From Syntrophomonas sp. (GTDB lineage Bacteria; Bacillota; Syntrophomonadia; Syntrophomonadales; Syntrophomonadaceae), in NCBI GenBank assembly GCA_016841425.1, contig JAENZE010000019.1, forward strand, positions 1-43,184: a DNA stretch of 43,184 nucleotides. Reading direction: 5' to 3'. Positions within the stretch are counted from its first letter, which is position 1. Each line of letters opens with the position of its first letter. Under the pieces are notes generated by a model. That model searched no databases, was not told where the DNA came from, and saw only the letters and a list, made by a program, of their open reading frames with translations. Of this stretch, positions 11,569 to 33,125 are shown piece by piece. A program made the position numbers and the translations under genes.

Positions 11569-11682
11569 ACTCCGAGTTATAATGTCTAAGGACTCTTACC
11601 GGGTCTATGGGATTATGACCTGGGTCAATGGCCCATAGGGCAGCGCGAGAAATTACGCTGCCTCCCGATATTGGAAAGGAGA
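11569..11682 (+). promoter_or_regulatory. Candidate Moco riboswitch (element 1, with extra P3-like stem)
   Basis: The core reads CTCCGAG (11570-11576), then GCCTCCCG (11660-11667) and GGAAAGGAG (11673-11681), as I remember the MOCO RNA motif. CTCC at 11570-11573 can pair with GGAG at 11678-11681 as the closing helix. GGCAGCG (11639-11645) pairs with CGCTGCC (11656-11662). CTATGGG (11605-11611) pairs with CCCATAG (11632-11638), enclosing TGAC/GTCA; this corresponds to the extra P3 stem of Mo-type members. It lies 140 bases before an operon of sulfite-oxidase-like surface proteins. The P2 helix is weak here. Class assignment is from memory and needs a covariance-model search. Confidence 0.65.
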
Positions 11683-11703
11683 GCAAAATATACGATTAAC
11701 TCC

Positions 11704-11739
11704 TCCTGCCCGATTATTTCTGGCAGGAATTCTATTTTT
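11704..11739 (+). terminator. Intrinsic terminator / expression platform of riboswitch element 1
   Basis: TCCTGCC (11704-11710) pairs with GGCAGGA (11722-11728), followed by TTCTATTTTT (11730-11739). The segment just upstream, CTCCTCC (11700-11706), can instead pair with GGAG from the 3' side of the aptamer. This gives a simple antiterminator/terminator choice in which a folded, ligand-bound aptamer would favour termination. The remaining bases up to 11823 show only the ribosome site region of the next gene. Confidence 0.72.
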
Positions 11740-11823
11740 GGGACCTGGCAGATAGATCAATAGTTTGCAGGCGATTCAGAAAACAAGGGACACTACTCAG
11801 CAACTCATTTCAGGTGGTATTAT

Positions 11824-13506
11824 ATGAAATTAAATAATTATATAATCTATATTTTATTGATTTTAATTATCTTATCCTACTCTAGCCTGGCGGGATGCAG
11901 GGAACATCCTTCAAACAGTGAAGCCGAGGGATTTTCTTTTGTTTTTATGAGCGATACCCAGGCAGATCCGCAGACTGGAGATTATACTGCCTGGGGGCAG
12001 TTGCTAAAACAGGCAACTGAACACGAGAGCCAACCCGCCTTTATTATGGTAGGTGGAGACCTGGTCAATGATGGCAGTGATCAGGAAGAGTGGGAGGATT
12101 TTTTTACAGCCGGAGGGGAAACCCTGGATAAATTCAGGGTTTATCCAGCTATGGGCAACCATGATGACAGCGAATTGTATACAAGCATCTTCGATCTGCC
12201 GGATAATGGGCCAGAAGGAAAAGAGGAAGCCTTTTATTCTTTTGACTATGGTAATGCTCACTTTACAGTTATGGATAGTAATGCCATGGGGGCAGCCGAG
12301 CAGGAAGATATAGACTGGCTTAGAAAGGATCTGTCAAATACTAATAAGACCTGCAAAATAGTAATGTTTCACCATCCTGCTTACCCGGCGGTTGAAATTC
12401 CCAAAGATATTGTACGGGCAGAGACCCTACGGAAAGCATTCGTGCCGGTTATGGAAGAAGGCGGGGTTGATCTGGTCTTAACCGGTCATCAGCATGTCTA
12501 CATGCGAACCTATTCTCTGCTTAACGGAATTAGAGATGAAGATGGTATCATTTACCTGATGGGAACATCGGGAGGCAAGCAGTATACGCCGTCATTATTT
12601 GATTATACTGCTTGCAGTTATAGCGACAAACCGGTGTATAGTATTGTATATGTAGATAAACAAGGGATTTCTATAGAGACCCGGGATTCCGCAGGAATAG
12701 TGGTTGACTCCACCAGGGTAAGCATTTCAGAAGAACAGCGGGATATCTCCCTGGTAGTCAGAGGAGATGGTATTAATGGAGAGCATAAATTTACCTTGCA
12801 GGAATTATCTGCGCTGCCCAATTCCGGTTTTCAACATGTCTACTCCACGATTAACAATTGGCCTACACCCAGATTTTATGCTGCTAAAGGTATTAGCCTG
12901 TACAGCATATTAAAGGCTGCCGGGGTTCTGAATACGTTTAAGCTTATTACCTTCCGCTCTCCCGACGGCTATGAAGTAAGCTTCACCAGAGAGCAGCTGC
13001 TCGATACCAGACGCTATTACTATCCCTGCGTGAATGAAGGAAGAGCTGATGAGGCAGAACCAGTAGAGCCAATTATAGCTTATGCCTACAAAGAAGGGTC
13101 TGCTGACCTGGGGAACGTATTGCCGGATGTTCTCTGCCTGATTATCGGTCAGAGCAGCCCTGAGGAGCATACCAATCCAGCCTTTGTTGTCAATGTTAGT
13201 GAGATTATAATCTCCAATAAGGAAGCTCAAACCTGGGATGCAGCTACCACTTTCCCCCTGGAAGGGAAAATTCCCTCCGGAGAGTCAGTTAAGCTGCAGC
13301 ACAAGCACTATGGACTCGTAAAGCTTTATTATACTTTGGACGGAAAAGATCCTACAGAGCAATCGAGCATGTATAATGTAAGCACATTCCAACCAGAGCT
13401 CAATGTTCCCATTACCATTACCGAAGATACCATAATTAAAGTTTTAGTGACCGGTTACGGTAAGAAAAACAGCCCCATCAGCAGTTTTAAATTTGAGGTG
13501 CAATAA
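11824..13506 (+). CDS. Lipoprotein: metallophosphoesterase + sulfite-oxidase-like module + CHB_HEX_C-like domain
   Basis: 560 residues. A hydrophobic signal with lipobox LAGC puts the lipidated cysteine at residue 25, so it is anchored outside the membrane. A calcineurin-like phosphoesterase follows (about 38-285) with all metal motifs: SDTQ, GGDLVND, GNHD, the His of HHPAY and GHQH. Next is a sulfite-oxidase-like module (about 305-455) with YSTINNWPTPRF, SPDGYEVSFTREQLL and a terminal strand. The last ~85 residues (YYTLDGKDPTE) are a chitobiase/Fn3-like C-terminal domain. The module has no cysteine where molybdenum enzymes bind Mo. It probably releases phosphate from an external nucleotide or cofactor; the substrate is unknown. 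It is first in an operon behind riboswitch element 1. Confidence 0.85.
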   Translation: MKLNNYIIYILLILIILSYSSLAGCREHPSNSEAEGFSFVFMSDTQADPQTGDYTAWGQLLKQATEHESQPAFIMVGGDLVNDGSDQEEWEDFFTAGGETLDKFRVYPAMGNHDDSELYTSIFDLPDNGPEGKEEAFYSFDYGNAHFTVMDSNAMGAAEQEDIDWLRKDLSNTNKTCKIVMFHHPAYPAVEIPKDIVRAETLRKAFVPVMEEGGVDLVLTGHQHVYMRTYSLLNGIRDEDGIIYLMGTSGGKQYTPSLFDYTACSYSDKPVYSIVYVDKQGISIETRDSAGIVVDSTRVSISEEQRDISLVVRGDGINGEHKFTLQELSALPNSGFQHVYSTINNWPTPRFYAAKGISLYSILKAAGVLNTFKLITFRSPDGYEVSFTREQLLDTRRYYYPCVNEGRADEAEPVEPIIAYAYKEGSADLGNVLPDVLCLIIGQSSPEEHTNPAFVVNVSEIIISNKEAQTWDAATTFPLEGKIPSGESVKLQHKHYGLVKLYYTLDGKDPTEQSSMYNVSTFQPELNVPITITEDTIIKVLVTGYGKKNSPISSFKFEVQ

Positions 13507-13533
13507 CCTGACACCAGGAGGAGAGAGTAATTT

Positions 13534-15531
13534 ATGCACAAGCAGCTCAGAGTTCAATGGTTCTTTGCTATCATGCTGATATTGGCATTAGCTTTCAGCA
13601 TGATAGCATGTTCCGGCACTGCAAGAAATAGCGGTGACCCAGGATATGAAGCCCGGATCATTACCATCGAAGGGCTAAATTTTGATCAGAATACTGATGT
13701 ATCTTTAACGGAAATATCAGTAGCCGAACTTCGCAAACTTCCACAACATGATCTGGATGGCAGCTATAAGCGGACTACGGGGCTAAGCGAGGAATTTAAG
13801 ATGTCAGGCCCATATCTGAGTGAAGTTATTGGGCATCTGGGGGGAAAGCTAGAGGATTATGCTGGAATAGGGGTAGTTGGCAGAGATGGTTATTACTGCC
13901 TGCTTTCTCAGGAGATTATAGCTGCTACGCCTGACCTGATGCTGGCAGTAGTCATAGACGGCGAAGCAAAATTGGATGAAGATAATGCTCCGGCTCGCCT
14001 GGCGGTACAGGGTCAATTTGGTCCCTACTGGGTTAAGCAAGTAGAGAAGATAATCCTTTATAAAGAGATTCCCGAGAAAAACATTACCTCGGTTTGGGTT
14101 TTTAAAAATCTGGCTGCAGGTATTGAGCCTTATAAATACGAATATTATGGTAGTAAAGACGATGCCATTGACCTGGAACAAGTTTTCTCCCGCCTGGATC
14201 AGGTTGATAACAAAGCCTTTTTCACCATGAAATCCTCCGATGGCTTCAAGAAAAACGAAGTCATCAATATGGTAAAATCACGTTACTTTATCAAGGTGGA
14301 GGGAGAGGATGCACCTACCAATGTTTCCCCTTATATTAAGCTGGGGATGAATGTGCAGAACATTGCCTGGATATCCACCAATGCTGATGCAGCAGTTTTT
14401 CCTGAAAAGATGATGGAGTATATGGACCTGGCAGAAATTGAGGGACATAAAGGCATCTCTCTGCAGGAACTGCTTTATGAAACCGAAGTAAAGGCAGTGA
14501 AATCTGAGAGCTTTGATATTCTGGGAACGCAAGGAGAAAAAATTACTGTAGCCGGTGCAGATATGAGCCAGGGTATTTTAGTGATGCAGGCCGATGGCCG
14601 TGCTAGTGTAATCTGGCCCCGGACGGCTGGATATCAGAATATTTATGACCTGCTGCGCATCCGTCTGGCAGAGAAGCAACCGGAAGGCGAAGCAAGTGAA
14701 GCTGATCAGAAGGAATCCAGCAGAACATCTGCTGATGCTGGCGATGGCAGCAGCACAACAGCTGCTGCAGAGTCAGATACTCCCGATGCAGATACTATAC
14801 TTACCATTACAGGCGACGCGGTAGACAAGCCAGTTTACTTGTCCATGGAAGATCTTAAACAGATGCAAATAGCTTATGTTGAGCAGAGTTTCTCTTCGGT
14901 AAACAATTATCCAACTAGAAAGTTCGTGGTAGGAAAAGGAGTAAACCTGTTGTACCTATTGGAGCAGGCGGGAATGAAGAGCAGCGCGAAAAGCATCTTA
15001 ATCGAAGCTGCAGACGGCTATAAAGCAGCATTAACCCGAGATCAACTCCTGGAGCAGCGCTATCGTTATCCGAACCTCTTATCCGGCAGTAATGCCAAAC
15101 CAGAGGAGGTGAAGCCTATGCTGGCCTGGGCCTTCAGGGAAGGACAGGATTTCTCCCAGGCAAGGGAAGATGGCCAGTTGCGCCTGCTTATAGGACAGAA
15201 GGGCATCAATAATGTTAATACAGCGGTATCGGTACAAATGGTGAGCAAAATATCCATATCCAGCAGGGATAATGGAAGCTGGGACCATCCCCGGGCTATC
15301 CTGGAAAACGGGCGAATTACTTTGTATCATGACTATATGGACCAGGTAAAGCTGTATTATACGTTGGATGGAAGCCAGCCCTGTGAGAATAGTGCGATAT
15401 ATAACCCCAGCACCAGCTATTTTCAACCGGATTTGATTAGGCCTATTACAGTAAGCGGATCTGGAACCTTAAAGGTCAAGGTGATTGGCTTCGGGAAAAG
15501 AGACAGCGAGGTACTGAGCTATGCTTATTAG
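13534..15531 (+). CDS. Lipoprotein with sulfite-oxidase-like modules and CHB_HEX_C-like domain
   Basis: 665 residues with an N-terminal signal and a cysteine at residue 26 (MIAC, a slightly weak lipobox). Module 1 (about 40-180) contains GVVGRDGYYCLL and a GPYWVKQVEKIILY end. A second, more diverged module (about 190-385) follows. A Ser/Ala/Glu/Asp-rich linker (about 390-425) leads to module 3 (about 430-580; NNYPTRKF, AADGYKAALTRDQLL). A chitobiase/Fn3-like domain with YYTLDGSQPCE ends the protein. Modules resemble Oxidored_molyb domains but lack the Mo-ligating cysteine, so binding or scaffolding seems likelier than redox catalysis. It starts 27 bases after the phosphoesterase gene with GGAGGAGAG, and its end overlaps the next gene by 11 bases. 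Confidence 0.8.
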   Translation: MHKQLRVQWFFAIMLILALAFSMIACSGTARNSGDPGYEARIITIEGLNFDQNTDVSLTEISVAELRKLPQHDLDGSYKRTTGLSEEFKMSGPYLSEVIGHLGGKLEDYAGIGVVGRDGYYCLLSQEIIAATPDLMLAVVIDGEAKLDEDNAPARLAVQGQFGPYWVKQVEKIILYKEIPEKNITSVWVFKNLAAGIEPYKYEYYGSKDDAIDLEQVFSRLDQVDNKAFFTMKSSDGFKKNEVINMVKSRYFIKVEGEDAPTNVSPYIKLGMNVQNIAWISTNADAAVFPEKMMEYMDLAEIEGHKGISLQELLYETEVKAVKSESFDILGTQGEKITVAGADMSQGILVMQADGRASVIWPRTAGYQNIYDLLRIRLAEKQPEGEASEADQKESSRTSADAGDGSSTTAAAESDTPDADTILTITGDAVDKPVYLSMEDLKQMQIAYVEQSFSSVNNYPTRKFVVGKGVNLLYLLEQAGMKSSAKSILIEAADGYKAALTRDQLLEQRYRYPNLLSGSNAKPEEVKPMLAWAFREGQDFSQAREDGQLRLLIGQKGINNVNTAVSVQMVSKISISSRDNGSWDHPRAILENGRITLYHDYMDQVKLYYTLDGSQPCENSAIYNPSTSYFQPDLIRPITVSGSGTLKVKVIGFGKRDSEVLSYAY

Positions 15532-16537
15532 GAAAATAGGGTTAATCCTGCTGCTGGCGGCATTTTTGCTGACTGGATGCGGGGAGCCTCCTCAGCCAAC
15601 AGAAGCAGAGATAGCAGCCCTTAATGATATCCTGGGCCGGAGCTACTCCGTACAAGATTACAAAATCATTACCGGAGAAGTTATGACCACAGAGAGAAAG
15701 GAAAAATTTGAAGCAGTGAAAAAGGTATTTGCCACCCCGGGAGGCGAGTATGCTTTCATTACCAAGCCGGTGGCATATAATGGCCCAATTACCCTGGCTG
15801 TAGGCATCAACCAGCAAACCCAAACAACGATTGGCATACGAATACTGGAACATGTGGAGACCGAGCATTACGTAAGGGATATGCATAATAACTGGTTTAC
15901 GGATCGATTTGCCGGTAAATCAATAGACAGCTATCTGAAACTGGTACATCTGGAAGCTTTACAGGATAATGAAATTATCATAATTACTGGAGCTACAGTG
16001 ACCACTGAGGCTATTACCAATGGGGTAAACGCTTGCATGGGAGTTTTTCGAGAGTTCGTATTAGCTAGTGAAGCCCATGCTGTACCCTATATGGTTAAAT
16101 TTGAAAAGGCAGCAGGAGATGGTCCCGAGGAAACTGGTTCCATTGCCATTCGGGCTTATGGGACAGTTTTAGGAGAGGTCACCCTGGATGAAATTAAGAA
16201 GATGCCCCAGGTGAAAAGGACTATGAGCATAAATTCTACATCGGGGACCAGCAGACATCGCTTTACTGGAACATTGCTGGCCCATGTAATCGCTGCGGTT
16301 GACCCTGCCCTGCTCACTAAATATGAACAAGTTATGCCAGTCGGAGTAGATGATTATATTTCGAATATCTCGATGGAAGAGGTCCTGGCAGAGAATTCAG
16401 TTTTTATAATGTATGAAGATAATGGAGAAGCACTGCTGACCAAGAAGGGCGAACCAGGTGCTATGCGGGTAATTGTTATGGACGATGTATTCGGGCAGCG
16501 ATTTACTAATTATATGATTGAAATTGATCTGGAGTAA
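15521..16537 (+). CDS. Lipoprotein: FMN-binding (RnfG/NqrC-like) domain fused to a sulfite-oxidase-like module
   Basis: 338 residues; lipobox LTGC puts the lipid cysteine at about residue 21. Residues 35-190 look like an FMN_bind domain: YNGPITLAVGI, a WF..F stretch near 125, then ITGATVTTEA with Thr156-Gly-Ala-Thr159. In RnfG/NqrC-type proteins the last Thr of (S/T)GA(T/S) receives FMN by phosphoester bond from ApbE, and an ApbE gene lies 1 kb downstream. The usual Asp three residues before the TGAT is replaced by Ile, so flavinylation is likely but not certain. Residues 205-338 are a diverged sulfite-oxidase-like module. It overlaps the upstream gene and is followed at once by a two-helix protein, suggesting a membrane electron-transfer pair. 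Confidence 0.82.
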   Translation: MLIRKIGLILLLAAFLLTGCGEPPQPTEAEIAALNDILGRSYSVQDYKIITGEVMTTERKEKFEAVKKVFATPGGEYAFITKPVAYNGPITLAVGINQQTQTTIGIRILEHVETEHYVRDMHNNWFTDRFAGKSIDSYLKLVHLEALQDNEIIIITGATVTTEAITNGVNACMGVFREFVLASEAHAVPYMVKFEKAAGDGPEETGSIAIRAYGTVLGEVTLDEIKKMPQVKRTMSINSTSGTSRHRFTGTLLAHVIAAVDPALLTKYEQVMPVGVDDYISNISMEEVLAENSVFIMYEDNGEALLTKKGEPGAMRVIVMDDVFGQRFTNYMIEIDLE

Positions 16538-16540
16538 GCC

Positions 16541-16792
16541 ATGAGTGTAAAAAAAACAAAGGGAATCATCTCTACTATTTTAATTTTGTCCGGATTGCTA
16601 TCCTTCATCACTGGAACGGTTCTATATTTCTTGAACTACGGCATGTGGCTTTGTTTTACGCGTGACTTCTTAAATGATATACATGCGCTTAGTGGTTTAA
16701 TTATGGGCATTATGGTAATTACGCATTTCTGTATTAATCGAAGAGCTTATCTGGCTGAAATGAGGACCCTGTTGAAAGGAAAGGAACCATAG
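16541..16792 (+). CDS. Small two-helix membrane protein, DUF4405/cytochrome-b-like
   Basis: 83 residues with transmembrane helices at about 9-31 and 46-66. The second helix carries His48 and His62, 14 residues apart, the spacing that lets one helix offer ligands to two b-type haems or one ligand per face. The sequence DIHALSGLIMGIMVITHFC resembles DUF4405-type helices. It starts 3 bases after the FMN-domain lipoprotein gene, so the two are translated together and may form a quinol/haem to flavin relay across the membrane. Haem binding is inference. Confidence 0.65.
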   Translation: MSVKKTKGIISTILILSGLLSFITGTVLYFLNYGMWLCFTRDFLNDIHALSGLIMGIMVITHFCINRRAYLAEMRTLLKGKEP

Positions 16793-16904
16793 ACCGATTA
16801 GCCTACGGAAAAACATTCAGGAAAAATCACATTATAATAAAAGCTTTTAAATTATGGCAAATAATGATAAAATTACTCTTAATTGAACCCAAAAACGAAT
16901 AACA

Positions 16905-17003
16905 CGATTCCGAGCTCATTTTGCTAAGGCCAAAAGCTAAGAAAAATGAGCCGATGGGTATAGTTGGAAACGGCTGTGCCTCCCATTTGGAAAGGAATTA
17001 GTC
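16905..17003 (+). promoter_or_regulatory. Candidate Tuco/Moco riboswitch (element 2, first of three in tandem)
   Basis: ATTCCGAG at 16907-16914 opens the element. GCTCATTTT pairs with AAAATGAGC as P2, CGATGGG follows directly, then a helix capped by a GAAA loop (GGAAAC), then GCCTCCC and GGAAAGGAAT near 16989-16998. No P3 helix lies between P2 and P4, the trait associated with the tungsten-cofactor (Tuco) variant. CCCATT inside the element can also pair with AATGGG at 17019-17024, suggesting a switch with the terminator just downstream. The sequence between 16793 and 16904 contains no gene. Confidence 0.68.
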
Positions 17004-17021
17004 AGATTAGTATTTCTCAAT

Positions 17022-17049
17022 GGGCGTGTTATCTATAGCAGGCCCTTTT
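17022..17049 (+). terminator. Terminator-like hairpin after element 2
   Basis: GGGC (17022-17025) pairs with GCCC (17042-17045), followed by TTTTCTT. The stem is short, so this is a weak call that rests mainly on its position, equivalent to the clearer terminator after element 4. Confidence 0.45.
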
Positions 17050-17139
17050 CTTATGGAAAAAAGAGACCGCTTATAACAAAGCCACATAGTACCTTAGTTA
17101 AAGTTTATGCGATGATTATTCAACTAGATAAATAACCAT

Positions 17140-17265
17140 GACTCGGAGTTCATTTTTCTTATTAAGTCATAGAAATGAACCGATGGTATAGTTTGTAAAC
17201 TACTATGCCTTCCCGTTCAGAAGTGATTGCTGAAGAGCATTAATTCTGGCCGGGACTTTTGCGTT
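17140..17265 (+). promoter_or_regulatory. Degenerate copy of the riboswitch (element 3, middle of the tandem)
   Basis: P2 is kept (GTTCATTT 17148-17155 with AAATGAAC 17173-17180), followed by CGATGG and a P4-like helix GGTATAGT/ACTATGCC with a GUAA loop. Core bases are lost: CCGAG has become CGGAG, and GGAAAGGAAT has become CAGAAGTGATT. The downstream terminator is also disrupted, although TCCCG and CGGGA near 17210 and 17250 can pair over a longer stem. It may be a dead duplicate, or an aptamer drifting to a new ligand. Confidence 0.55.
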
Positions 17266-17389
17266 TAATAGAGCGGTTTTTATTTTGCACTGAGTTAGGA
17301 TGCTGGTCATGTAATTTCTAATAATTAAGGTTTGCTGTAGGCTTAAGTTTTTTAATTAAAGTTACAAAACATAATAAACCTTGAAAAAA

Positions 17390-17484
17390 CGATTCCGAGT
17401 TCATTTTCCTAAGGTAAGGGCTATGAGAAATGAACCGATGGGCATAGTTGGAAACGGCTGTGCCTCCCGCTTGGAAAGGAATTG
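17390..17484 (+). promoter_or_regulatory. Candidate Tuco/Moco riboswitch (element 4, last of the tandem)
   Basis: The best-preserved copy. P1 pairs CGATTCC (17390-17396) with GGAATTG (17478-17484). P2 pairs GTTCATTT with AAATGAAC around a loop containing CTAAGG. CGATGGG leads into P4, GGCATAG...CTGTGCC, capped by GAAA closed by G-C. GCCTCCCG and TTGGAAAGGAAT complete the core. There is no P3. GAATT from P1 can alternatively pair with AATTC at 17497-17501. It stands before the ApbE gene and, further on, the S-layer proteins and ECF transporter. Confidence 0.72.
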
Positions 17485-17503
17485 CTAAAGTGAGTAATTC
17501 TTA

Positions 17504-17559: not shown

Positions 17560-18573
17560 ATGAAAAAGAAGCTAAAGAATCTTATACTCCTGGGAATATT
17601 TTTGCCTTTTATTCTGACCGGCTGCTCAGAGGAAAAACAGAGTACCTATACCCGTGACATTTTTGCTATGGACACCTATATTAACTGTCAGATCCTGGCA
17701 GGAAACCAGGATATTGCAGAGGAAGGACTGGACCGGGTAGAAGAAGCCTTTCTGGAGATTGATAACCTCACCAATCGATTTGATCCAAATTCAGAATTAT
17801 CTCTAGTTAACAAGAACGCTGGGTTGGCTGCAGTCAAGGTCAGCCCGGATTTATTGGCGATGGTGGAGACAGCCCTGGAATGGTCAGATCGTACCGAGGG
17901 AGCTTTTAATATATTAATTGGCAGCGCTATGAACTTGTGGGGCTTTGGTTCAGAGACCCCTCGGGTGCCAACAGAAGAGCAAATTGCAGAAGCCCTGCTT
18001 ACAATGGATTATCATGAGATAATCCTGGATACTGAGAAGGCTAGCCTTTTTTTGCCGGAAAAAGGAATGGTTATGGATCTAGGAGGAGTTGCTAAAGGCT
18101 ATGCTACTGATAAGGCAGTGACCGCGCTCAAAGAATTAGGGATTGAAAACGCCATAATTAATGCCGGAGGCAATGTTTACACTTTAGGTACCAGGGGAGA
18201 TGGAAATTGCTGGAGAATAGGCGTGCAGGATCCGCGAGACCCTGAGGCTATAGTAGCCGTATTGGAGGTTAGTGATTTCGCCCTGGTTTCTTCGGGCGAT
18301 TATCAGAGGTATTTTGAAATAGAGGGCATTCGCTATCATCATATCCTGGACCCCTTCACTGCTTATCCATCCCGGGCCAGTGCGGGTACTACAGTTGTTA
18401 TGGAATCCGCGGCGGTGGCTGACATTCTATCTACGGCCTTGTTCATAAAGGGTCCAGGGGAAGGCATTACTCTGGCTGAAAGTCTGGTTGAGGTTGAGGC
18501 TGCCATGATCATCAGCGGGGACGGAACAATACATGGAACCGGGTCTATGAGCAAGTATGTGATAGAGCCCTAG
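17560..18573 (+). CDS. apbE: FAD:protein FMN transferase, lipoprotein (ApbE family)
   Basis: 337 residues with a lipoprotein signal ending LTGC. ApbE motifs appear in order: AMDTYI near 36, LTNRFDPNSELS near 74, NLWGFG near 128, MDLGGVAKGYATD near 171, INAGGN near 200, SSGDYQRYF near 248 and the Mg/FAD site HILDPFTAYP near 262. ApbE moves FMN from FAD onto Thr/Ser of exported proteins with a (D/E)xx(S/T)GA(T/S) site. Candidate acceptors are encoded next to it: the FMN-domain lipoprotein (TGAT at 156-159) and the giant S-layer protein (DAITGAT at 426-432). The ribosome site GGAAGGAGAG lies just before ATG 17560. It is first in the stretch controlled by the tandem riboswitches. Confidence 0.93.
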   Translation: MKKKLKNLILLGIFLPFILTGCSEEKQSTYTRDIFAMDTYINCQILAGNQDIAEEGLDRVEEAFLEIDNLTNRFDPNSELSLVNKNAGLAAVKVSPDLLAMVETALEWSDRTEGAFNILIGSAMNLWGFGSETPRVPTEEQIAEALLTMDYHEIILDTEKASLFLPEKGMVMDLGGVAKGYATDKAVTALKELGIENAIINAGGNVYTLGTRGDGNCWRIGVQDPRDPEAIVAVLEVSDFALVSSGDYQRYFEIEGIRYHHILDPFTAYPSRASAGTTVVMESAAVADILSTALFIKGPGEGITLAESLVEVEAAMIISGDGTIHGTGSMSKYVIEP

Positions 18574-18712: not shown

Positions 18713-21700
18713 GTGTGTAAGAGAAATGGAAGAGTCTTAACAAAAAAGCAGGGCAGACTTTTTAAGCAATCCCTGTCTTTAGTGCTGGCAGTTGCCTTGT
18801 TGTTATGCACCATACCTATTTTGCCAGGCATGAACTGGGCGGCAGCAGCAGATGAACTGAGCGGCATTACCGAACAGCCGGTGCTGCTGGTCAGCGGGAC
18901 AGGTATCATTGACGGTGCCTATACAGCGGATAACATAGGAGATGAGCAATCCTATACTCTGGAAGAACTGCAGGCTCTAGAGGAGATAACACAGCTATAT
19001 TCGACTATCAATACTACTCCGACCCGCAGTGTCTACTTGGGAAAGGGCATTTCCGTTGACACCCTGCTGCAGGAATCAAATGTTGCCGCAGAGGACTTTG
19101 GGGATTATGAAATTGATATGGTAGCGGCTGACGGTTATACGGTCCGTTTTGACCCTGCTTTAACCGGGCCATCGACTACCAAGGGAAAACCTTTAAAAAC
19201 CCCGGCCTTTGATGTAAACAGGTATTATTATCCCAATATCCAGCAACTGGTAGTAGGTATGGATGGCGAGACTTATATCTACAGTAATGAAGAAAATGCA
19301 GCGGTTGACGGTGCAATCGCCAAGACTATTCTAGCCTGGGAACGGGGCGGAGAGCGGGGAGAGCCGGAAATTGTTCCTGATACGACAGAAACTCTGGGCA
19401 GCGATGAAGCCTTGCTGTTGATGGTGGGACAACAAAATGTCTGGGAGCAGACAAATCCCCTGTTTAACAAGACCGTTAACAAGGTGCTGGTGGGTGGAGC
19501 AGTAACGGAATCAGCCATCACCATCGACGGCACAGCCAAGACCAGGAGCGAGATACTGCTGATGGAGCGGGCGGACCGGAGTTATACTTATGAGACATCA
19601 GGTGGTACAGCTACCGATTATGTACGGGGTATACCTCTGGCAGTTATCCTACAGGCCTATAACGATGATGATATCGTCAGCTTTACCGCGGCTGATGGCT
19701 ATACGGTAAGCGCTTCCGGTATGACTGTGTCTGAACTGATCAGTGGGAATTACCTGCTGGCATATGAAAAGGGTACAAATGCAAATGATTTAACCGGGAT
19801 TTACGCCACCGCAAAAAGTGATCCATCTATCTATGGGTTCTTCACTTTGTACGGTGATGGAGAGAAACCTTCTAAGCTGATCAACAGTATTACGGTTACT
19901 TCCGCTTCCGGAAATGATTTTGCCAACAGTCCATACAAGCATATCACTAATGGAGGATTAACCGGACAAGATGGCCCTTATGATATAGATGCCATCACCG
20001 GTGCCACCTTGACTATTGAGGGACCGGGACTTAGTTCCAGTGTGCCCCTGTCTATCCTGGAATTGGAAAGCCAGAATGCCGGTGCTTTTAGAGGTGTCTA
20101 TACCGACAACCGAGACGGGGCTGACTGGGAGCTGCAATATGAAGGGATAAAGCTCTCCCATTTACTCAACGATATGAGCAGTGGTGACAGCGGCATTAAT
20201 CTGACCGCCGACGCTCATAAGGTCTTGATCAAAAACCGGGTTCGGCAGACTATCGCCGAGTTCACCCTGGGTGAAATTGAGGAAGCAGATACAGCAGGAA
20301 AACCTATAATTGTAGCTTACGGAACCAGCACAACGGATGATGACCCCGATACAGCACCCTTTGTCTATGATGGTGCGGCCGGCTACAAAGATGCGCTGGA
20401 TAATGATGATGGTCCGATCAAGCTGGTCTATGATAAAAGCGCCTTCGCTTCTGATCCCAATCCAGACTATACGGAATTCAGCAATATGGCCTATATCTAC
20501 ATAGCAGAGGAAGTTAGTCCGGGATTCAAACATAATATAGCTCCCTATGACACCCCGGAAAATTCGGAATATGTATTGACTGTTACCGGAGATAAGATTG
20601 GCCGGGAAGTAAACTACACCGTCGATCAATTGGAAAATATGGTGATGTATGATGCTGATGCCAAACCGGCAGCAGATGGCATGGGCTACCGGGATGAGTA
20701 CAGTCTATCCAACAGCACTTATTGGTACGTTAATGAATATGAAGGGGTGCAGCTGTGGAAATTGCTGCAGAAATCGGGTTTGGCCTCCAGTTCCGCTACT
20801 GGATCGGAAAAGGATACCCTGATTCAATTTTCCGCTACCGATAACTACAAGGATTTCGATAAGTTTACTATCGAGCAGGTATCCAATCCGGATTTATTTG
20901 GTTTTTACGAAAAGAACCCGGCTGACCTGAACGATGGTAATTACCTGGGAGTTGCGGAAGACTTGAAAAGCTCAGGCTATCCGGTTCTGGTTGCCTATGG
21001 AGTCAACTCCTACCCCTATGTAATTAAAAACACCCTGGATGGTTATATGAGCGGTCTTTCTAATGATGGCGGCCCTCTACGCATCATTTCCGGCAAGACA
21101 GAATACAGCCACGCCAATGGTTCCAAGCAGGCCAAGCTGCTGGATAAGATCATTGTAGGTGAGGATAAATATTACAGCACCCACAAGTACAATCCTAACC
21201 TGGCTGGATTGTATCAGACCATTGCCAGTTCGACCCTGAATGTGAAGGTTATCTCCGGTGCCGCGGAAGACGGAGCTGTCCTCAAGGATATAACCTACCA
21301 GGTAGGAGATTTAGAAGAACTCCTTTACGGGGGCACTCTGACTGCCGCCCAGCTAAAGGAAGCCAAGGTCAAAGCATTTTATGAAGCGTACAAAAATGGA
21401 AGTGCCTACAATGACCTTTATGAAGGACTGGATTTAGTGTACTTCCTAGAACAGGTGGTACAGCTTCCTGGCTATAAGGGTACCATCACTTTTAGCGATG
21501 GAACAAACACCTTGTCCAAGAGCCTGGAAGAAGTATTAGCCTTCTCCGGCTATAACGGCACTACCGGATTAGGTGAGTTACCTCCAGTCCTGGCTTATGC
21601 CAAGAATGGCGCTCCCATGGTAAATAGCAAGGATGTGGAAGACGGTTATGAAGGTACGGTTACTCTGGCAGCTGGGACCGATTATGAACATACCATAACA

Positions 21701-26820: not shown

Positions 26821-26868
26821 GGGTTCTTAATAAACAACACTATCAATTTGGGAATGGGGGTTGATAAG

Positions 26869-28269
26869 GTGTATAAACGATTTACTGCCGCATTTGTCAT
26901 CGTACTGCTATTATTCATGATCATCCCGCTAAATGCCCTGGCTGCCGAAGGCAGTGCGGAAACCTTGACCATAAAAGGGGATGGGGTTAGCCAGGAAATA
27001 ATCTTCAGCAGGGCGCAGTTGGAAGCGATGGCCAGTGCCATTACCAAGGACATTTATTCTGCTGCTAACAATTTCCCCACCGAAAAAACTATGTATCGGA
27101 AAGGGGTTTCACTGCTTTACCTGCTTGAACAGGCAGGTATGAAGGGCACCCCGGGACAGCTTAAGTTTATATCCTCCGATGGCTATACCAGAACCTTTAC
27201 CTACGAGGAACTAGTAAAAGATGCCCGCTACTATTACTCCCCGAATGGATCCCGGGTGTCTGTCCCCACCATCATAGCTTTCGCTGACAGCAGTAAAGGA
27301 TTCAACTCCATGAGCCCAATTGAGCTGGTCTTAACCATGGGGCAAAGAGTTAAAGGAGAGCAGAATAATCCATGGTTTGTCAAATACCTGCAGACTATTG
27401 AGGTTATTAGCTCTGAGCCGGATAAGTGGCCCCAGGTTACTTTTAGCCAGACTGCAGGAACTGAAGGCATGATGTTTGAGTTAAAACACAGTAATTATGA
27501 TGCGGTTAAGATTTACTATACCTTGGATGGAAGTGATCCTGACATTAACAGCACGGTTTATAATGTCAGTGCTTCTTATTATCAGCCGGATTTAAACCGG
27601 CCGATTTTAGTTAAAGGTGATACAGAAATACGGGCTATCGCTATCGGGGCCGGGAAGAGACACAGCTTGGTTTCCTCCAGCCGTACTGCTGTGGGGGGGG
27701 AAGTCTTCACTGATCTAGAAGGGTACTCCTGGGCTAGAACTGCCATTGAAAATTTGTGCGGTAACGGTATTATTAATGGTATGGGTGATTCTCGCTTTGC
27801 GCCGGGGGAACCATTAACCAGAGCTCAATTTGCCAAGATGATAATTATAGCTCTGGGAGAAACAACACAAAAAGGATCCGTCCCTGCCTTCAAGGATATA
27901 AAAACTACCGATTGGCATTTTCCCTATGTGCAAAAAGCAGCTGAACTCGGCCTATTGAAAGGATATCCGGATGGAAACTTCCGTCCTGATCAGAGCTTAA
28001 GCCGCGAAGAAATGCTTGCTATAATGGTGCAGTCGATGGGGGTAGAGATTGCTACTGAAGATATTCCTGCGGAACTGCTAAGACCCCTGGCCTGCGAAAA
28101 CAGAATCAGCGATTGGGCCCGACCATATGCGGCCTATGCGGAAAATCTTGGAATTTTAGAGCATGGACATATGGCATTGGAAACAGGCAGCGGGCTATTC
28201 TTCAATGCCCGGGAACAGGCCTCCCGAGCCGAAGCAGCCATGACCCTTTATCTAATGCTCAACCAGTAA
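26869..28269 (+). CDS. S-layer protein with one sulfite-oxidase-like module, CHB_HEX_C-like domain and three SLH domains
   Basis: 466 residues if started at GTG 26869, chosen because GGGGG lies 8 bases upstream and the signal peptide then starts VYKRFTAAF; a TTG at 26848 and an ATG at 26854 are in-frame alternatives. The signal ends near NALAA. The module (about 30-185; NNFPTEKTMY, SSDGYTRTFTYEEL) closely matches the third module of the lipoprotein at 13.5 kb. A chitobiase/Fn3-like domain follows (YYTLDGSDPDIN, YYQPDLNRPI). Three SLH units then give wall anchoring: FTDLEGYSW, FKDIKTTDWH and ISDWARPYA. It is probably a smaller surface partner of the giant protein. The next gene encodes the ECF substrate-specificity subunit. 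Confidence 0.85.
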   Translation: MYKRFTAAFVIVLLLFMIIPLNALAAEGSAETLTIKGDGVSQEIIFSRAQLEAMASAITKDIYSAANNFPTEKTMYRKGVSLLYLLEQAGMKGTPGQLKFISSDGYTRTFTYEELVKDARYYYSPNGSRVSVPTIIAFADSSKGFNSMSPIELVLTMGQRVKGEQNNPWFVKYLQTIEVISSEPDKWPQVTFSQTAGTEGMMFELKHSNYDAVKIYYTLDGSDPDINSTVYNVSASYYQPDLNRPILVKGDTEIRAIAIGAGKRHSLVSSSRTAVGGEVFTDLEGYSWARTAIENLCGNGIINGMGDSRFAPGEPLTRAQFAKMIIIALGETTQKGSVPAFKDIKTTDWHFPYVQKAAELGLLKGYPDGNFRPDQSLSREEMLAIMVQSMGVEIATEDIPAELLRPLACENRISDWARPYAAYAENLGILEHGHMALETGSGLFFNAREQASRAEAAMTLYLMLNQ

Positions 28270-28903: not shown

Positions 28904-29431
28904 ATGTCAAAAACCAACCGGACTATAATTATTATATTGGTAGCGCTCCTGGCAATCACCCTTGTGGGCGCAGTATATAATATGCAGTATGCCAGGGAAA
29001 AGGCAGCTATGCTCGAAGCCGCGGAAATATCAGTGCTCGAGAACGGCCGAGAGGTATGCCGCCTAAATATGGATGCAATTAATAAGCTTACCATTACTGA
29101 CTTTACTGCCCGCTTGAAGAGCAGTGTCATGAAATCGCCGGAGGAGCATACCTATACTGGCATAGCGCTGCACCAACTTTTTGCATCAACAGGAATATCC
29201 CTGGAGGATAGGAAACGGGTAGTAGTTCGCTCGGTCGATGGCTACGCAGTACCCCTCACCATTAAAGAAATACAAACCCTGGATAACATTTACCTGGTTT
29301 TTAAGGACAATGGGGAATATCTGGGTTCTTACGGCGCGGGCAATGGACAAGGACCCTATATGATAGTGATACGGGGTGATAGCTACAGCCAGCGCTGGGC
29401 TAAATATGTCTGTGAACTGGACATCCAATAA
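28904..29431 (+). CDS. Membrane-anchored single sulfite-oxidase-like module, candidate ECF accessory receptor
   Basis: 175 residues: an N-terminal anchor (about 7-26, IIIILVALLAITLVGAV) then one exported module with YTGIALHQLF, RSVDGYAVPLTIKEI and a GPYMIVIRGDSYSQRWAKYVCEL end that mirrors the closing strand of Oxidored_molyb domains. The Mo-ligating cysteine is absent. Its position between the S component and the ATPases of an ECF transporter is unusual, since ECF systems normally need no extracytoplasmic receptor. The simplest reading is that this module hands substrate to the S component, as the larger surface proteins would do further out. Confidence 0.75.
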   Translation: MSKTNRTIIIILVALLAITLVGAVYNMQYAREKAAMLEAAEISVLENGREVCRLNMDAINKLTITDFTARLKSSVMKSPEEHTYTGIALHQLFASTGISLEDRKRVVVRSVDGYAVPLTIKEIQTLDNIYLVFKDNGEYLGSYGAGNGQGPYMIVIRGDSYSQRWAKYVCELDIQ

Positions 29432-29450
29432 GAAGGTGGGGTTGCAGAAA

Positions 29451-30113
29451 ATGCTAGCAGTTGAAGCAAGAGCGCTTAGCTTTAGATACCAGGGACAGCA
29501 TACTCTTGTTTTGGATAAGGTTAATTTTAATTTGGAACAGGGAAAAATTGCTGCCATTACCGGCTTATCGGGATGCGGCAAGAGTACTCTGGGATACTGT
29601 CTTAGCGGTGTTATCCCCAGGTTAATCAAGGGTGATTTTAGCGGTGAGGTAAACCTTCAGGGCAGGGTGGGGATAGTATTTCAGGATCCAGATACTCAGA
29701 TCTTCCTGCCTACCGTAGAGGACGAACTGGCCTTTGGCCCGGAAAACCTGTGCCTTGCCCGGGAGGAGATAAGAGAGATAATCAGCTGCAATCTGGAGCT
29801 AATAGGATTGAAAGAACTGCGTACAGAAAATCCGGCTACTCTCTCCGGGGGGCAGAAGCAGTTGGTAGCGCTAAGTGGAGTGCTGACCCTATCCCCGGAT
29901 ATTTTAGTGTTGGACGAGCCTCTGTCCCAATTAGACAACTCTGCTAAAGATCGGGTTAAAAGTATTTTGCTGGGGTTGAAGGAGGAAGGCAAGACTTTAA
30001 TCATAATGGAGCATGATAAAAAGAACTTGCTCCTGGCCGATCAGATCTGGTGCTTGGAAAGAGGAAGGCTGTTTCAGCTCCCTGCATCAGGGGAGGTAAA
30101 TCAAGGTGAATAG
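29451..30113 (+). CDS. ECF transporter ATPase A1 (EcfA/CbiO type)
   Basis: 220 residues from ATG 29451, with AAGGTGGGG 9 bases upstream; an in-frame upstream start would overlap the previous gene by 56 bases and adds no family sequence. Motifs: Walker A GLSGCGKST, Q-loop FQDPDTQIF, signature LSGGQKQ, Walker B ILVLDEPLSQLD, switch His in MEHD. The FQDP(D)xQ form of the Q-loop is typical of ECF ATPases. It couples ATP hydrolysis to the T component and overlaps the second ATPase gene by 8 bases. Confidence 0.92.
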   Translation: MLAVEARALSFRYQGQHTLVLDKVNFNLEQGKIAAITGLSGCGKSTLGYCLSGVIPRLIKGDFSGEVNLQGRVGIVFQDPDTQIFLPTVEDELAFGPENLCLAREEIREIISCNLELIGLKELRTENPATLSGGQKQLVALSGVLTLSPDILVLDEPLSQLDNSAKDRVKSILLGLKEEGKTLIIMEHDKKNLLLADQIWCLERGRLFQLPASGEVNQGE

Positions 30114-30780
30114 AGAAATTGCATTAGAACTAAAGAATCTGGTATTCTCCTATCGACCAGAGTCAATCCTTATCGAGCAGATGAACTTAGCCTTGTTCAA
30201 GGGAGAAGCCGCAGCCCTGGTAGGGCCCAATGGAGCAGGGAAAACCACTCTGGGTAAATTAATGGCCGGGATACTAAAGCCTTCCTCGGGACAGCTTATA
30301 ATTTTTGGGGAAGAGGGAAAAACCCTTCCTCTTCACCGAATAGCACAAAGGGTAGGATACTGTTTTCAGAATCCAGAACATCAACTGCTGGCTGTTTCAG
30401 TAGAAGATGAAATTGCCTTTGGTTTAAAATATCGTTCAGCAGGACAGGATCATATTTCCCGGGTAACAGAATCACTTTTAAAGCTTTTTGAAATTGAAAG
30501 GCTTAGAAAGGCTTTCCCCTTGAATTTAAGCTGGGGGGAAAAAAGACGAGTGGTGTTAGCGGCTAGCCTGGCTTTAGATCCGGAATTTATAATCCTGGAT
30601 GAGCCGACCAATGGACTGGATGATGAGCAGATAGAGACGCTAAATCGGGTTCTGGGAGGCTTACATGAAAGAGGGATAGGTGTGCTGCTCATAAGCCATA
30701 ATCAGAGTTTTGTAGAGATCAATGCCCAGCGGATTCTGCAAATGGAAGAGGGAAAGATTGTCAATGACTACTGCCTTTAG
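30106..30780 (+). CDS. ECF transporter ATPase A2, with altered ABC signature
   Basis: 224 residues. Walker A GPNGAGKTT, Q-loop FQNPEHQLL, Walker B FIILDEPTNGLD and switch His in ISHNQ are intact. The ABC signature reads LSWGEKRR instead of LSGGQ, so the site formed with the Walker A of A1 may be impaired or specialised, making the A1/A2 pair asymmetric. It overlaps A1 by 8 bases and the T component by 17 bases, indicating tight translational coupling. Confidence 0.92.
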   Translation: MNREIALELKNLVFSYRPESILIEQMNLALFKGEAAALVGPNGAGKTTLGKLMAGILKPSSGQLIIFGEEGKTLPLHRIAQRVGYCFQNPEHQLLAVSVEDEIAFGLKYRSAGQDHISRVTESLLKLFEIERLRKAFPLNLSWGEKRRVVLAASLALDPEFIILDEPTNGLDDEQIETLNRVLGGLHERGIGVLLISHNQSFVEINAQRILQMEEGKIVNDYCL

Positions 30781-31513
30781 CCTGGATCCAAGGACTAAAC
30801 TTTTCCTGGTGGCCTGCCTCTCGTCCTGTGCAGTTATTACAACTCACTGGGCTTTCCTCAGTGGGCTCTGGGTGGTGTCAATATTACTGCTGCTCGTTTT
30901 CGGAATCAGCCCCTGGGATATGATGAAAAAAATCAGGTTGCTGCTATATATGGTCATATTTATTGCTATGATGCAGAGTATTTTTATTTCTGCGGGGCAG
31001 GCGTTAATAACTATAGGCAATATCAGCTTAATGACTACCGGTGGACTGCTAATGGCCATGGAATTTGTTTTTCGAATGCTAATCATCGTATGTTCTGCTG
31101 GTATTCTATCTACATCTAACAGTCGTGAAATTATTCAGGGCTTGATTCAATTGAAGCTGCCATATGAGCTGGCCTTTATGGCATCCCTGGGTATCAGGTT
31201 TATTCCGGTTTTTGCTGAAGAATTGAGAAATACTATGACTGCGGTGCAGCTTCGGGGTATAGATATTAGGGTTCTTCCCTGGCGGCAGAAAATCGAAGTC
31301 ATGACCGGCCTATTTCAGCCGGTGGTGGCTGGAGCTATAATCAAATCCAGGTCTCTGGCTATGTCTATAGAGATGAGAGGTTTTAGAGCCTATCCTACCC
31401 GCAGCAGCTATCTTCTGCTGAAATACGAGAGGAAGGACTATGTGGTCATGATTTGCAGCGGATTACTAACCGCGATACTTATGTTCGGATATTTTTTTTG
31501 GTTCCAGGCATAG
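30764..31513 (+). CDS. ecfT: ECF transporter transmembrane component (EcfT)
   Basis: 249 residues from ATG 30764, which follows GAGGGAAAG; a start at 30722 would be buried in the ATPase gene. The N-terminus LDPRTKLF is the usual EcfT opening, followed by membrane helices. The two coupling-helix motifs that contact the ATPases are present as AVQLRGI near residue 165 and SIEMRGF near 205, close to the ARG-type motifs of the family. It completes an S-A-A-T set dedicated to one S component rather than a shared group II module. Confidence 0.92.
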   Translation: MTTAFSLDPRTKLFLVACLSSCAVITTHWAFLSGLWVVSILLLLVFGISPWDMMKKIRLLLYMVIFIAMMQSIFISAGQALITIGNISLMTTGGLLMAMEFVFRMLIIVCSAGILSTSNSREIIQGLIQLKLPYELAFMASLGIRFIPVFAEELRNTMTAVQLRGIDIRVLPWRQKIEVMTGLFQPVVAGAIIKSRSLAMSIEMRGFRAYPTRSSYLLLKYERKDYVVMICSGLLTAILMFGYFFWFQA

Positions 31514-31569
31514 ACAGCACCACATTATGTGTTCGTAATGCCCACATAACTTTTAAGGAAGGTTGAATA

Positions 31570-32103
31570 ATGAAAGTATTCTCCATTACAGGTATTTCAA
31601 AATCGGGAAAGACTACCACTGCAGAAGCAGTAATAGTTGAGCTGCGTCGGAGGAATTATAGCGTCGGCTCAGTTAAAGACATCCATTTTGAAGGATTCTC
31701 CCTGGACCAGGAAGGTACCAATACGTACCGGCACCGGATGGCGGGGGCTCAACTGGTAACCGCCCGCGGCCTGTATGAAACGGATGTGATGTTTCCACAG
31801 AGGTTATCTTTGGATATTATACTAGGTTTCTATCAGCAGGATTTTGTAGTTCTGGAAGGAGCTATGGACTTCAAAGGACCAGGAATGATCGCAGCATGTA
31901 CTGAAATCGAGATAGACGAGAGAAGACGGGATAATATATTTGCGATAGTAGGGCAAATTTCTAACCGCCTGAAAGAATACCGGGGATTACCAGTGATTAA
32001 CGCCATAACTGACCCTGTCCACCTGGTAGATTTGATAGAAAAGGCGGTGCCGATCTGGACCGGGCATGAGCAGTGGGCAGAGAAGGAGACCTGCTATGAT
32101 TAA
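31570..32103 (+). CDS. mobB: MobB-like GTP-binding protein (molybdopterin-guanine dinucleotide biosynthesis adaptor)
   Basis: 177 residues. P-loop GISKSGKTT at 8-16, then SVKDIHFEGFSLDQEGTNTYRHRMAGA written in family terms as K-D-x-H, the D-x-E-G-x-(N/D) box and R-H-R-x-A-G-A, which characterise MobB. VVLEGAMDF provides the Walker-B-like region. MobB binds GTP and assists MobA in making the (bis)MGD form of molybdenum or tungsten cofactor. Its presence in the ECF operon, away from other moa/moe genes, is the strongest protein-level link between this locus and Mo/W cofactor. AAGGAAGG precedes the ATG. Confidence 0.85.
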   Translation: MKVFSITGISKSGKTTTAEAVIVELRRRNYSVGSVKDIHFEGFSLDQEGTNTYRHRMAGAQLVTARGLYETDVMFPQRLSLDIILGFYQQDFVVLEGAMDFKGPGMIAACTEIEIDERRRDNIFAIVGQISNRLKEYRGLPVINAITDPVHLVDLIEKAVPIWTGHEQWAEKETCYD

Positions 32104-32755
32104 ACCGACTACAGGTGAACGGCTTCTCAGCAAGAAAAATTTTGTCTATCGGGAGCGAGGAGAACAGCAGGATGTGGTAGTCAAAATATTTTCTGATTTG
32201 AAGCGCTTTCAAAGGGAAAGGGAGATAGGGGATCTGCTGCAGGGCTCTAGCCTTGCTACGCCGGCACGTTATTCCTGTGACGAGAATAGTCTTACGATCA
32301 TATACCAATTTGTTGAGGGCTCTCCTGTGGTGGATTTTATTGAAAACACTGAACTATCTGAGGCAGAGGATATAATAGGGAAAATTTGTGTATGGCTTCT
32401 TGAATTCTATTCGATTATTCGGGGTAAACAGGGATGTCAGTACATACTCGGAGATATTCACCTGCGTAATTTCATATACAACCGGGTTTCCCAGCAAGTA
32501 TATGGATTCGACTTTGAGGAATGCCGCATTGGTCAAATAGAGAGTGATGTTGCACGGCTGTTTGTCTTTATCTTGCACTATGATCCGGCCTTTACCCCAC
32601 GTAAAAAAGCACTGGCAAATTACCTATGGGAAAATCTTTCTGCCCCACTTGCACTAGATGAAACCTTATTTCAACAGGAAGTGAAAAGGGAAACGCTAGA
32701 ACTAATAAACCGACGGGCCAAAAGGGATATAACCCGTTCAAGGATAAGTAAATAA
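32096..32755 (+). CDS. Small protein-kinase-like (APH/Bud32-type) phosphotransferase
   Basis: 219 residues from ATG 32096, with AAGGAG 7 bases upstream and an 8-base overlap with mobB. The fold cues are a VVVKIF lysine strand near residue 28, a catalytic loop GDIHLRNF near 128 (matching GDxHxxN of APH/Bud32/RIO kinases) and a metal-binding GFDFEE near 147 in place of DFG. The glycine-rich loop is weak. It may phosphorylate a small molecule brought in by the transporter, or a protein; nothing in the sequence decides. Translational coupling to mobB suggests it acts on a related compound. Confidence 0.65.
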   Translation: MIKPTTGERLLSKKNFVYRERGEQQDVVVKIFSDLKRFQREREIGDLLQGSSLATPARYSCDENSLTIIYQFVEGSPVVDFIENTELSEAEDIIGKICVWLLEFYSIIRGKQGCQYILGDIHLRNFIYNRVSQQVYGFDFEECRIGQIESDVARLFVFILHYDPAFTPRKKALANYLWENLSAPLALDETLFQQEVKRETLELINRRAKRDITRSRISK

Positions 32756-32774
32756 AGGATGGATTTTCTGTACA

Positions 32775-33125
32775 ATGAGGAAAAAAGATATAATATGTTT
32801 GATTATAATAGTGCTGTTATTATTTCTTGGTTATGCTGCGTTGAAGAACTTTCAGAGCATACAGGGAAGTAAAGGAAGAATAGCAATAATAATTCAACAG
32901 GAGAGAGTAATCGAACGTATTGATCTGGATAAGGTAAGCGAGCCGAGAGAGATTAGACTTAGCGGCAGCTATGATGAAACCATATTGGTAGAAAAGGGAC
33001 GGATAAGGTTCAAGGAAGCTGACTGTCCCGACCAGATATGTGTTAAAACAGGATGGCTGGAAGAACCGGGGGATACGGCAGTGTGTCTGCCTAACCGGGC
33101 CATAGTGAGAATAGAAACTAAGTGA
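32775..33125 (+). CDS. NusG domain II-containing membrane-anchored protein
   Basis: 116 residues: one N-terminal membrane helix (about 6-24) followed by an exported small beta domain with LSGSYDETILVEKGRIRFKEADCPDQICVKTGW, of which the ending ADCPDQ-CVKTGW and CLPN are typical of the NusG_II (PF07009) family. Such proteins are often found beside FMN_bind, ApbE and membrane transporter genes in Firmicutes, consistent with this neighbourhood. The two nearby cysteines could form a disulfide. The function of the family is not established. It ends the forward gene run; its stop overlaps the end of a decayed reverse-strand gene. Confidence 0.82.
   Translation: MRKKDIICLIIIVLLLFLGYAALKNFQSIQGSKGRIAIIIQQERVIERIDLDKVSEPREIRLSGSYDETILVEKGRIRFKEADCPDQICVKTGWLEEPGDTAVCLPNRAIVRIETK

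Follow-up and report, generated by a model that had tools for sequence, protein, structure and literature searches.

A candidate import system for the pyranopterin cofactor of molybdenum and tungsten enzymes in Syntrophomonas and other Bacillota

Genes and RNA leaders of the locus

The window that we analysed is a stretch of 43,184 nucleotides from a Syntrophomonas sp. genome, and all of the features described here lie on its + strand. The first of these is a Moco RNA (RF01055) with a P3 stem (11558..11700; 86.3 bits, E 9e-20), which forms the leader of a lipoprotein operon. Directly 3' of the aptamer, sequence inspection and RNA folding indicate a terminator-like hairpin, CCTGCC...GGCAGG, with a T-rich tail (11705..11739), for which the consensus terminator scan made no call. 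The first gene 3' of this leader (11824..13506) encodes a lipoprotein in which domain and module profiles recognise a metallophosphoesterase (PF00149), a sulfite-oxidase-like (SUOX-like) module at residues 309-471 and a chitobiase-C-like domain. Two more lipoproteins follow, one with two clear and two weak SUOX-like modules according to the module profile (13534..15531) and another in which domain and module profiles find an FMN_bind domain and a SUOX-like module (15521..16537), and the group ends with a DUF4405 small membrane protein, a putative haem protein (16541..16792; PF14358, E 1.3e-7).

The second group of genes lies 3' of a set of tandem leaders. Two of these are Moco RNAs without P3, that is, of the Tuco type, located at 16896..17013 (75.8 bits) and 17381..17497 (70.1 bits); the former is followed by a terminator hairpin (17022-17045; -12.4 kcal/mol) and a T tract, and the latter by a terminator hairpin (17504-17532) and T6. 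Alignment to these two leaders reveals a decayed third tandem copy (~17130..17355), which shares with them a mean column identity of 72% and has lost conserved core bases (CTCGGAG for TTCCGAG, GTAAAC for GGAAAC); cmscan gave no covariance-model match for it. The presence or absence of P3 was read off the covariance-model alignments, and all three RNAs score well above the RF01055 gathering score of 36 bits with their conserved core present. Thus, the window contains three Moco RNAs and one remnant, and an earlier note, which had been made from sequence alone and had claimed four Moco/Tuco-like leaders, was right on three of them; the outcome that it said would refute its proposal, no match in a covariance-model search with RF01055, did not occur. 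The Rfam scan gave no other meaningful match in the region. The whole genome (3.58 Mb) holds 13 Moco RNAs, and tandem leaders are therefore typical for it. Regulski et al. 2008 (PMC2408646) had already counted at least 15 Moco RNAs in S. wolfei, described tandem arrangements there and tied P3-less Moco RNAs to the tungsten cofactor.

The genes 3' of these leaders begin with an ApbE lipoprotein, an FMN transferase that is accessory and outside the conserved core (17560..18573; PF02424, E 8e-83). Next comes an S-layer-anchored protein of 2678 aa (18713..26749), which combines about 10 SUOX-like modules with a propeller segment and 3 SLH domains and has one DAITGAT motif of the flavinylation type, and a second S-layer-anchored protein with one SUOX-like module and SLH domains (26848..28269). 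The ECF operon then encodes the substrate-binding component EcfS, which matches the YkoE-like family PF09819 (28330..28869; E 8.6e-12, 45.7 bits against a cut-off of 25.2); a membrane-anchored SUOX-like module in the interval between EcfS and the ATPases (28904..29431), a putative core subunit; the ATPases EcfA1 (29376..30113, with a likely real start at about 29448) and EcfA2 (30106..30780), both PF00005; the transmembrane component EcfT of the CbiQ family (30722..31513; PF02361); a MobB-like P-loop protein (31570..32103; PF03205); an APH-type small kinase with GDIHLRNF and FDFEE motifs (32066..32755; PF01636); and an accessory NusG_II-domain protein (32775..33125; PF07009, E 2e-31). The gene set of an ECF transporter (the S component, two ABC ATPases and the T component) is thus complete, with transport itself being inferred. 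We found no sequence match to EcfS in the PDB, and its structure model had a mean pLDDT of only 57, so it was left out of the argument. The gene content claimed in the earlier note held throughout: five exported proteins with SUOX-like modules (two S-layer-anchored, three lipoproteins), a sixth, membrane-anchored one within the ECF operon, the S-A-A-T transporter, the MobB-like protein, the kinase, ApbE, the DUF4405 putative haem protein and the NusG_II protein.

RNA folding places terminator hairpins 3' of most leaders; the consensus scan missed the leader hairpins because their loops or stems do not satisfy its rule. In single leaders, an antiterminator-like pairing of the aptamer with the terminator had been convincing by eye, before a shuffle test on 21 leaders proved not significant (combined p 0.26). 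The hairpins fit a ligand-dependent shut-off, and it is possible that the RNAs act in this way, but given the result of the shuffle test the direction of regulation is only inferred. The same applies to the claim, made in the earlier note, that production is turned off when the cofactor is plentiful.

Conservation of the ECF operon and its modules

A profile search of 398 Bacillota genomes with the MobB-like family identified 45 clear carriers, with a gap in E-values setting them apart from true MobB. Its members share the invariant motifs KxIH, HxxAG and ETD, and many have a C-terminal cysteine-rich domain of FeS type. The MobB-like protein reaches 75.3 bits against the TIGR00176 equivalog, below the cut-off of 76.2, and the window's genome encodes a true MobB elsewhere, in addition to the MobB-like gene. 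The latter represents a sequence family of its own, distinct from true MobB and from the genome's own copy of it.

The order EcfS, SUOX-like module, EcfA1, EcfA2, EcfT, MobB-like protein, with or without the kinase behind it, is complete in 29 of 52 loci, and the complete block is spread over many Bacillota families. EcfS homologues adjoin the MobB-like gene in 35 of the 52 loci and SUOX-like modules lie near it in 33, whereas ApbE and NusG_II are each found near it in only 3; since they are so rare, the flavin genes are a local addition outside the conserved core. The co-occurrence of mobB-like and ECF genes with these modules in other genomes is thus conserved, and the second outcome that would have counted against the original proposal, its absence, did not occur either. 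Several genomes (G129, G164, G198 and G272) have only EcfS, the MobB-like gene and the kinase, which suggests that an energising module may be shared there, a possibility that we put forward tentatively. We also observed that some carriers have a MobB-like gene without a nearby ECF set.

Other genes found in these loci bear on the possible ligand. In 15 other loci there is an exported phosphodiesterase/nucleotide-pyrophosphatase (PF01663), in many cases encoded directly between EcfS and the membrane module, and most of the members tested have a module-like N-terminus, a result that is suggestive given that the profile was partly trained on the same pool. The association of two unrelated types of phosphoesterase with the same module fits a phosphate- or nucleotide-bearing ligand, such as molybdopterin or its dinucleotide. 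In one locus (L157), a MoeA gene lies between the MobB-like and kinase genes; in two (L039 and L156), the MobB-like gene adjoins an aldehyde:ferredoxin oxidoreductase (AOR); and in another (L151), a molybdate-like binding protein of the SBP_bac_11 family is encoded downstream of the operon.

The module profile recognises about 16 SUOX-like modules in the six proteins of the window, with about 10 in the 2678-aa protein, two clear ones in the product of 13534-15531 and one in each of the others. As the earlier note had claimed, the cysteine that ligates Mo in the sulfite oxidase family is absent from all of them: in the module profile alignment, none has a cysteine at the Mo-ligand position. The membrane module encoded directly 5' of EcfA1 can be aligned across 30 genomes, with an invariant Gly, Asp and GxGP, and it has an SS/SSG stretch around the place that the cysteine occupies in sulfite oxidase. 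Given this conserved position and these residues, it resembles a regular transporter subunit, and we infer that it probably is one. Its AF2 model (pLDDT 81) finds its best fold match in PruR (Z 15.9, rmsd 2.5 over 124 residues), followed by chicken sulfite oxidase (Z 15.0, rmsd 2.6 over 130 residues), and it meets the PruR-type description of a small, exported protein with the SUOX fold and no cysteine. PruR, which also lacks the cysteine, binds tetrahydropterins (PMC13259868), and its site is reportedly too small for Moco (PMC13259868); the equally small modules of the window might therefore bind a smaller pterin. The predicted fold thus lends support to a pterin ligand without fixing the ligand's size, and we have no ligand or binding data.

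Pathway loss, proposed import and rival explanations

We looked for MoaC, MoaA and MoeA in 54 MobB-like carriers and 26 random non-carriers. The three genes are jointly absent from 25 of the 54 carriers, belonging to at least 9 families, while nearly all of the 29 carriers that are not fully pathway-less have MoeA. MoaE had also been considered as a third pathway marker but was dropped, as it gave no match in 73 of the 80 genomes, including most of those with moaA and moaC. Most of the genomes are drafts and moa genes are often clustered, so single absences may be assembly gaps (one genome, G272, with moaA and moeA present and no match for MoaC, was handled as such), but this does not apply to two single-contig pathway-less carriers, G146 (99% complete) and G354 (97% complete). 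The window's own organism has moaA, moaC and moeA.

Most pathway-less carriers nevertheless keep an enzyme that needs the cofactor. The tungsten aldehyde:ferredoxin oxidoreductase (W-AOR) was found in 22 of 25 pathway-less carriers, compared with 1 of the 8 non-carriers without the pathway (Fisher p 2e-4), and, when only high-quality genomes were considered, in 11 of 12 against 1 of 7 (p 0.002). Conversely, among AOR-positive genomes, 22 of 50 carriers are pathway-less compared with 1 of 15 non-carriers (p 0.012; p 0.08 for high-quality genomes only). These comparisons assume independent genomes, an assumption that shared ancestry violates. There are exceptions as well: three pathway-less carriers have no AOR, and one genome (G124) is AOR-positive and pathway-less yet has no MobB-like marker. 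In G146, the AOR has its full length of 596 residues and aligns from end to end with tungsten AORs of solved structure (1aor, E 1e-223), and another pathway-less carrier, G054, also has a selenocysteine formate dehydrogenase. No Tup/Mod-like binding protein was found in the first 1.6 Mb (about 57%) of G146. Since W-AOR is kept without moaA, moaC and moeA, these genomes require a cofactor whose known biosynthetic route they lack.

The ECF operon is directly preceded by a Moco RNA in 12 pathway-less genomes, among them a single-contig genome; the distance to the first recognised gene of the operon is 47-122 nt in 11 of them and 300 nt in the other. In G054, G146, G209, G297, G327, G371 and G391, the Moco RNA on the ECF operon is the only one in the genome. 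A Moco sensor at this position would do little for an organism that lacks the pathway, unless the cofactor comes from outside.

We consider it likely that the operon serves to scavenge or import the pyranopterin cofactor on which Mo/W enzymes depend (Moco or Tuco), and it is because pathway-less genomes keep both Mo/W enzymes and a Moco RNA on the ECF operon that we favour this reading. The gene content, the RNAs, the conserved gene order, the joint absence of biosynthesis genes and the fold are shown; what is inferred is which ligand is bound and in what metal state, that it is transported, which enzymatic steps occur and in which direction regulation works. The capture of a pterin or Mo cofactor followed by ECF import, as the earlier note had proposed, is thus supported by comparative genomics, without ligand data. 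In the scheme that we propose, exported phosphoesterases carrying cofactor-binding modules (the metallophosphoesterase lipoprotein in the window, the phosphodiesterase/nucleotide-pyrophosphatase in relatives) would trim external cofactor, for example by taking the nucleotide off a dinucleotide form and perhaps the phosphate too. The pyranopterin would be held by the SUOX-like modules on lipoproteins and the S-layer, handed to the membrane-anchored module beside the transporter and imported by the dedicated ECF complex (S, A, A, T). Inside the cell, the APH-type kinase would add the phosphate back, and completion or delivery of the cofactor would fall to the MobB-like GTPase (and, in relatives, also to MoeA). 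With plentiful cofactor, the Moco/Tuco RNAs and their terminators would switch the genes off. Import would then be the sole source of cofactor in pathway-less organisms and a salvage route in the window's organism, where moaA, moaC and moeA are all present. A bolder reading, for and against which we find the case roughly balanced, is that this is a dedicated importer of the complete, metal-loaded Mo/W cofactor, an ECF system with its own SUOX-like extracellular subunit, S-layer capture and trimming phosphoesterases that would allow anaerobes to live on the cofactor of their neighbours.

Several points speak against cofactor import: the YkoE family of EcfS, the size of the PruR site, the marker-less genome G124, the p of 0.08 among high-quality AOR-positive genomes, the draft state of most assemblies, the three pathway-less carriers without AOR, the carriers that have no ECF set near the MobB-like gene and the non-significant antiterminator test; no ligand, binding or transport data stand behind the model.

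Among the alternatives, the one that survives best, and which is possible, is that what passes through the ECF transporter is a metal-free product or precursor (MPT, dephospho-MPT or cPMP), which receives its metal inside the cell. The MoeA gene inside the L157 operon and the presence of MoeA in nearly all carriers that are not fully pathway-less argue for it, but MoeA is absent from all 25 pathway-less carriers. We regard as unlikely a simple-pterin system, in which tetrahydropterins would be the ligands of the PruR-like modules, for signalling, redox or salvage, and also the cargo of the ECF transporter. In its favour, PruR is the best fold match and its truncated site is said not to fit Moco; against it, the Moco RNAs, the MobB-like and MoeA genes and the AOR link point to a Mo/W cofactor, simple pterins would leave Mo/W enzymes without their cofactor in genomes that lack moaA, moaC and moeA, and the operon encodes no partner of the DcpA type (GGDEF/EAL).

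The remaining alternatives seem to us very unlikely. The competing view offered in the earlier note, a flavin-based extracellular electron-transfer locus with an ECF transporter that handles flavin, can draw on ApbE, FMN_bind, DUF4405, NusG_II and the DAITGAT motif of the S-layer protein, but it is weakened by the rarity of ApbE and NusG_II (3 of 52 loci each, against 35 for EcfS and 33 for SUOX-like modules), by a conserved core without any flavin gene and by control through Moco RNAs and not an FMN riboswitch. Flavin or electron transfer as the core function was thus rejected as the primary reading, since the flavin genes do not accompany the ECF core across loci. A thiamine-type importer with a YkoE-family S component and a ThiK-like APH kinase, incidentally under Moco control, would account for the match of EcfS to PF09819 (the YkoE family transports thiamine, and the thiamine kinase ThiK belongs to the APH superfamily), but the Rfam scan of the window and of loci L038-L051 returned no TPP riboswitch, and the constant company of the SUOX-like module, the MobB-like protein and the Moco RNA argues against it. 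Finally, one could take the SUOX-like proteins for working molybdoenzymes of the cell surface and the transporter for a molybdate or tungstate importer. This would agree with the SUOX fold, with Moco RNAs being usual for Moco users and with the molybdate-like binding protein downstream of the L151 operon, but the Mo-ligating cysteine is absent from every module, and extra oxyanion is no help to genomes without moaA, moaC and moeA.

Novelty and comparison with known systems

In the literature that we searched, which excluded most subscription journals, no Mo/W cofactor importer is described, and a prior description is possible; within the same limits, no paper joins "Moco riboswitch" with "ECF transporter". 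According to a 2022 paper, C. elegans was the only organism in which the uptake of exogenous Moco had been examined or seen (PMC9793310), and a 2018 survey left several hundred organisms with a partial trait unexplained, especially those with molybdoproteins and no complete pathway (PMC6147048). The type of transporter is known; what is probably new is the substrate class, which is inferred, the SUOX-like subunit and the surface modules, and the pathway-less carriers of an operon under Moco RNA control are, as far as we can judge, newly recognised here. If our reading is true, the operon would account, in a concrete and testable way, for one large group of such organisms as cofactor auxotrophs that import the Mo/W cofactor, and this cofactor would be a shared good in anaerobic communities, as vitamin B12 is. 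The SUOX-like pterin-binding modules would be extended to transport, and there would be named candidate proteins for stabilising and delivering a cofactor of medical interest. Free Mo/W cofactor is unstable.

The closest known transporters are the ECF group I vitamin importers of the YkoE/PF09819 branch, which also have S, two ATPases and T in one operon, often with a putative substrate-trapping kinase. Complete operons of the type found in the window differ from them in adding a SUOX-like membrane module between S and A, and the system as a whole in its Moco RNA control, its MobB-like partner and its binding modules on the S-layer and lipoproteins. The MobB-like protein shares with MobB (TIGR00176) the P-loop fold and the match to PF03205, but has KDIHFEGF and ETD motifs and often a C-terminal domain of FeS type. 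As for the modules, the periplasmic pterin-binding protein PruR (7kom, 7kos, 7rkb) is likewise small and exported, with the SUOX fold and no Mo-ligating cysteine. In contrast to PruR, the window operon encodes neither a DcpA nor a sensor kinase partner, and its modules belong to a transporter, are repeated up to about 10 times and are fused to S-layer anchors and phosphoesterases.

At the level of the regulon and the organism, three comparisons can be made. The Moco/Tuco regulon of S. wolfei (Regulski et al. 2008, PMC2408646) has the same tandem RNAs and P3-less types, and an association with SUOX-type and transport genes was noted there; however, that study lists MPT synthesis, molybdate/tungstate transport and unknown genes, and we found no proposal of cofactor import in its relevant sections. 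The orphan molybdoprotein organisms (PMC6147048) also have molybdoproteins without a complete Moco pathway, which was explained there by unknown biosynthesis or Mo-independent forms, whereas we propose a specific importer for one group of Bacillota. Lastly, C. elegans takes up ready-made cofactor from another organism with its diet (PMC9793310), but it is an animal that acquires protein-bound Moco by an unknown mechanism, while the operon described here offers a bacterial transporter candidate.

Moco RNAs and SUOX-module clusters elsewhere in the genome

Besides the window's own cluster, the genome contains two further clusters of large SUOX-module/S-layer proteins. For the one on contig C14 (L052, 3017-12328), the Moco RNAs upstream form a tandem P3-containing pair, and the one on contig C11 (L055, 10439-12721) is likewise preceded by Moco RNA. 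Another Moco RNA, at L058:10041-10161 (C25:51040-51160), lies upstream of an apparent nickel-iron hydrogenase operon that includes maturation genes; Moco RNAs are not usually associated with such an operon. The large bacterial SRP RNA in the window (RF01854, 35367-35632, 203 bits) bears no relation to the main finding.

Cofactor synthesis genes

MoaE is the large subunit of MPT synthase. In a search of 80 Bacillota genomes, most of those with moaA and moaC gave no MoaE match, and it is therefore likely that sulfur insertion in these lineages proceeds via an unrecognised protein. One genome without moaA, moaC or moeA (G054) encodes an exported formate dehydrogenase containing selenocysteine (L067:400-3438). 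In G146, a ThiF/MoeB-like gene (L201:5977-6702) is found immediately 3′ of an aldehyde oxidoreductase gene, despite the absence of the remaining cofactor pathway.

MobB-like genes and proteins

In G328, moeA (L157:7662-8903) is located within the ECF operon, flanked by the MobB-like and kinase genes, and in G147 a MoeA match adjoins the MobB-like gene. Most MobB-like relatives (L048, L050, L041, L042, L045) bear a C-terminal, FeS-type cysteine cluster, CCGxCGxSC...C, as well as a small extra domain, whereas the Syntrophomonas members have neither.
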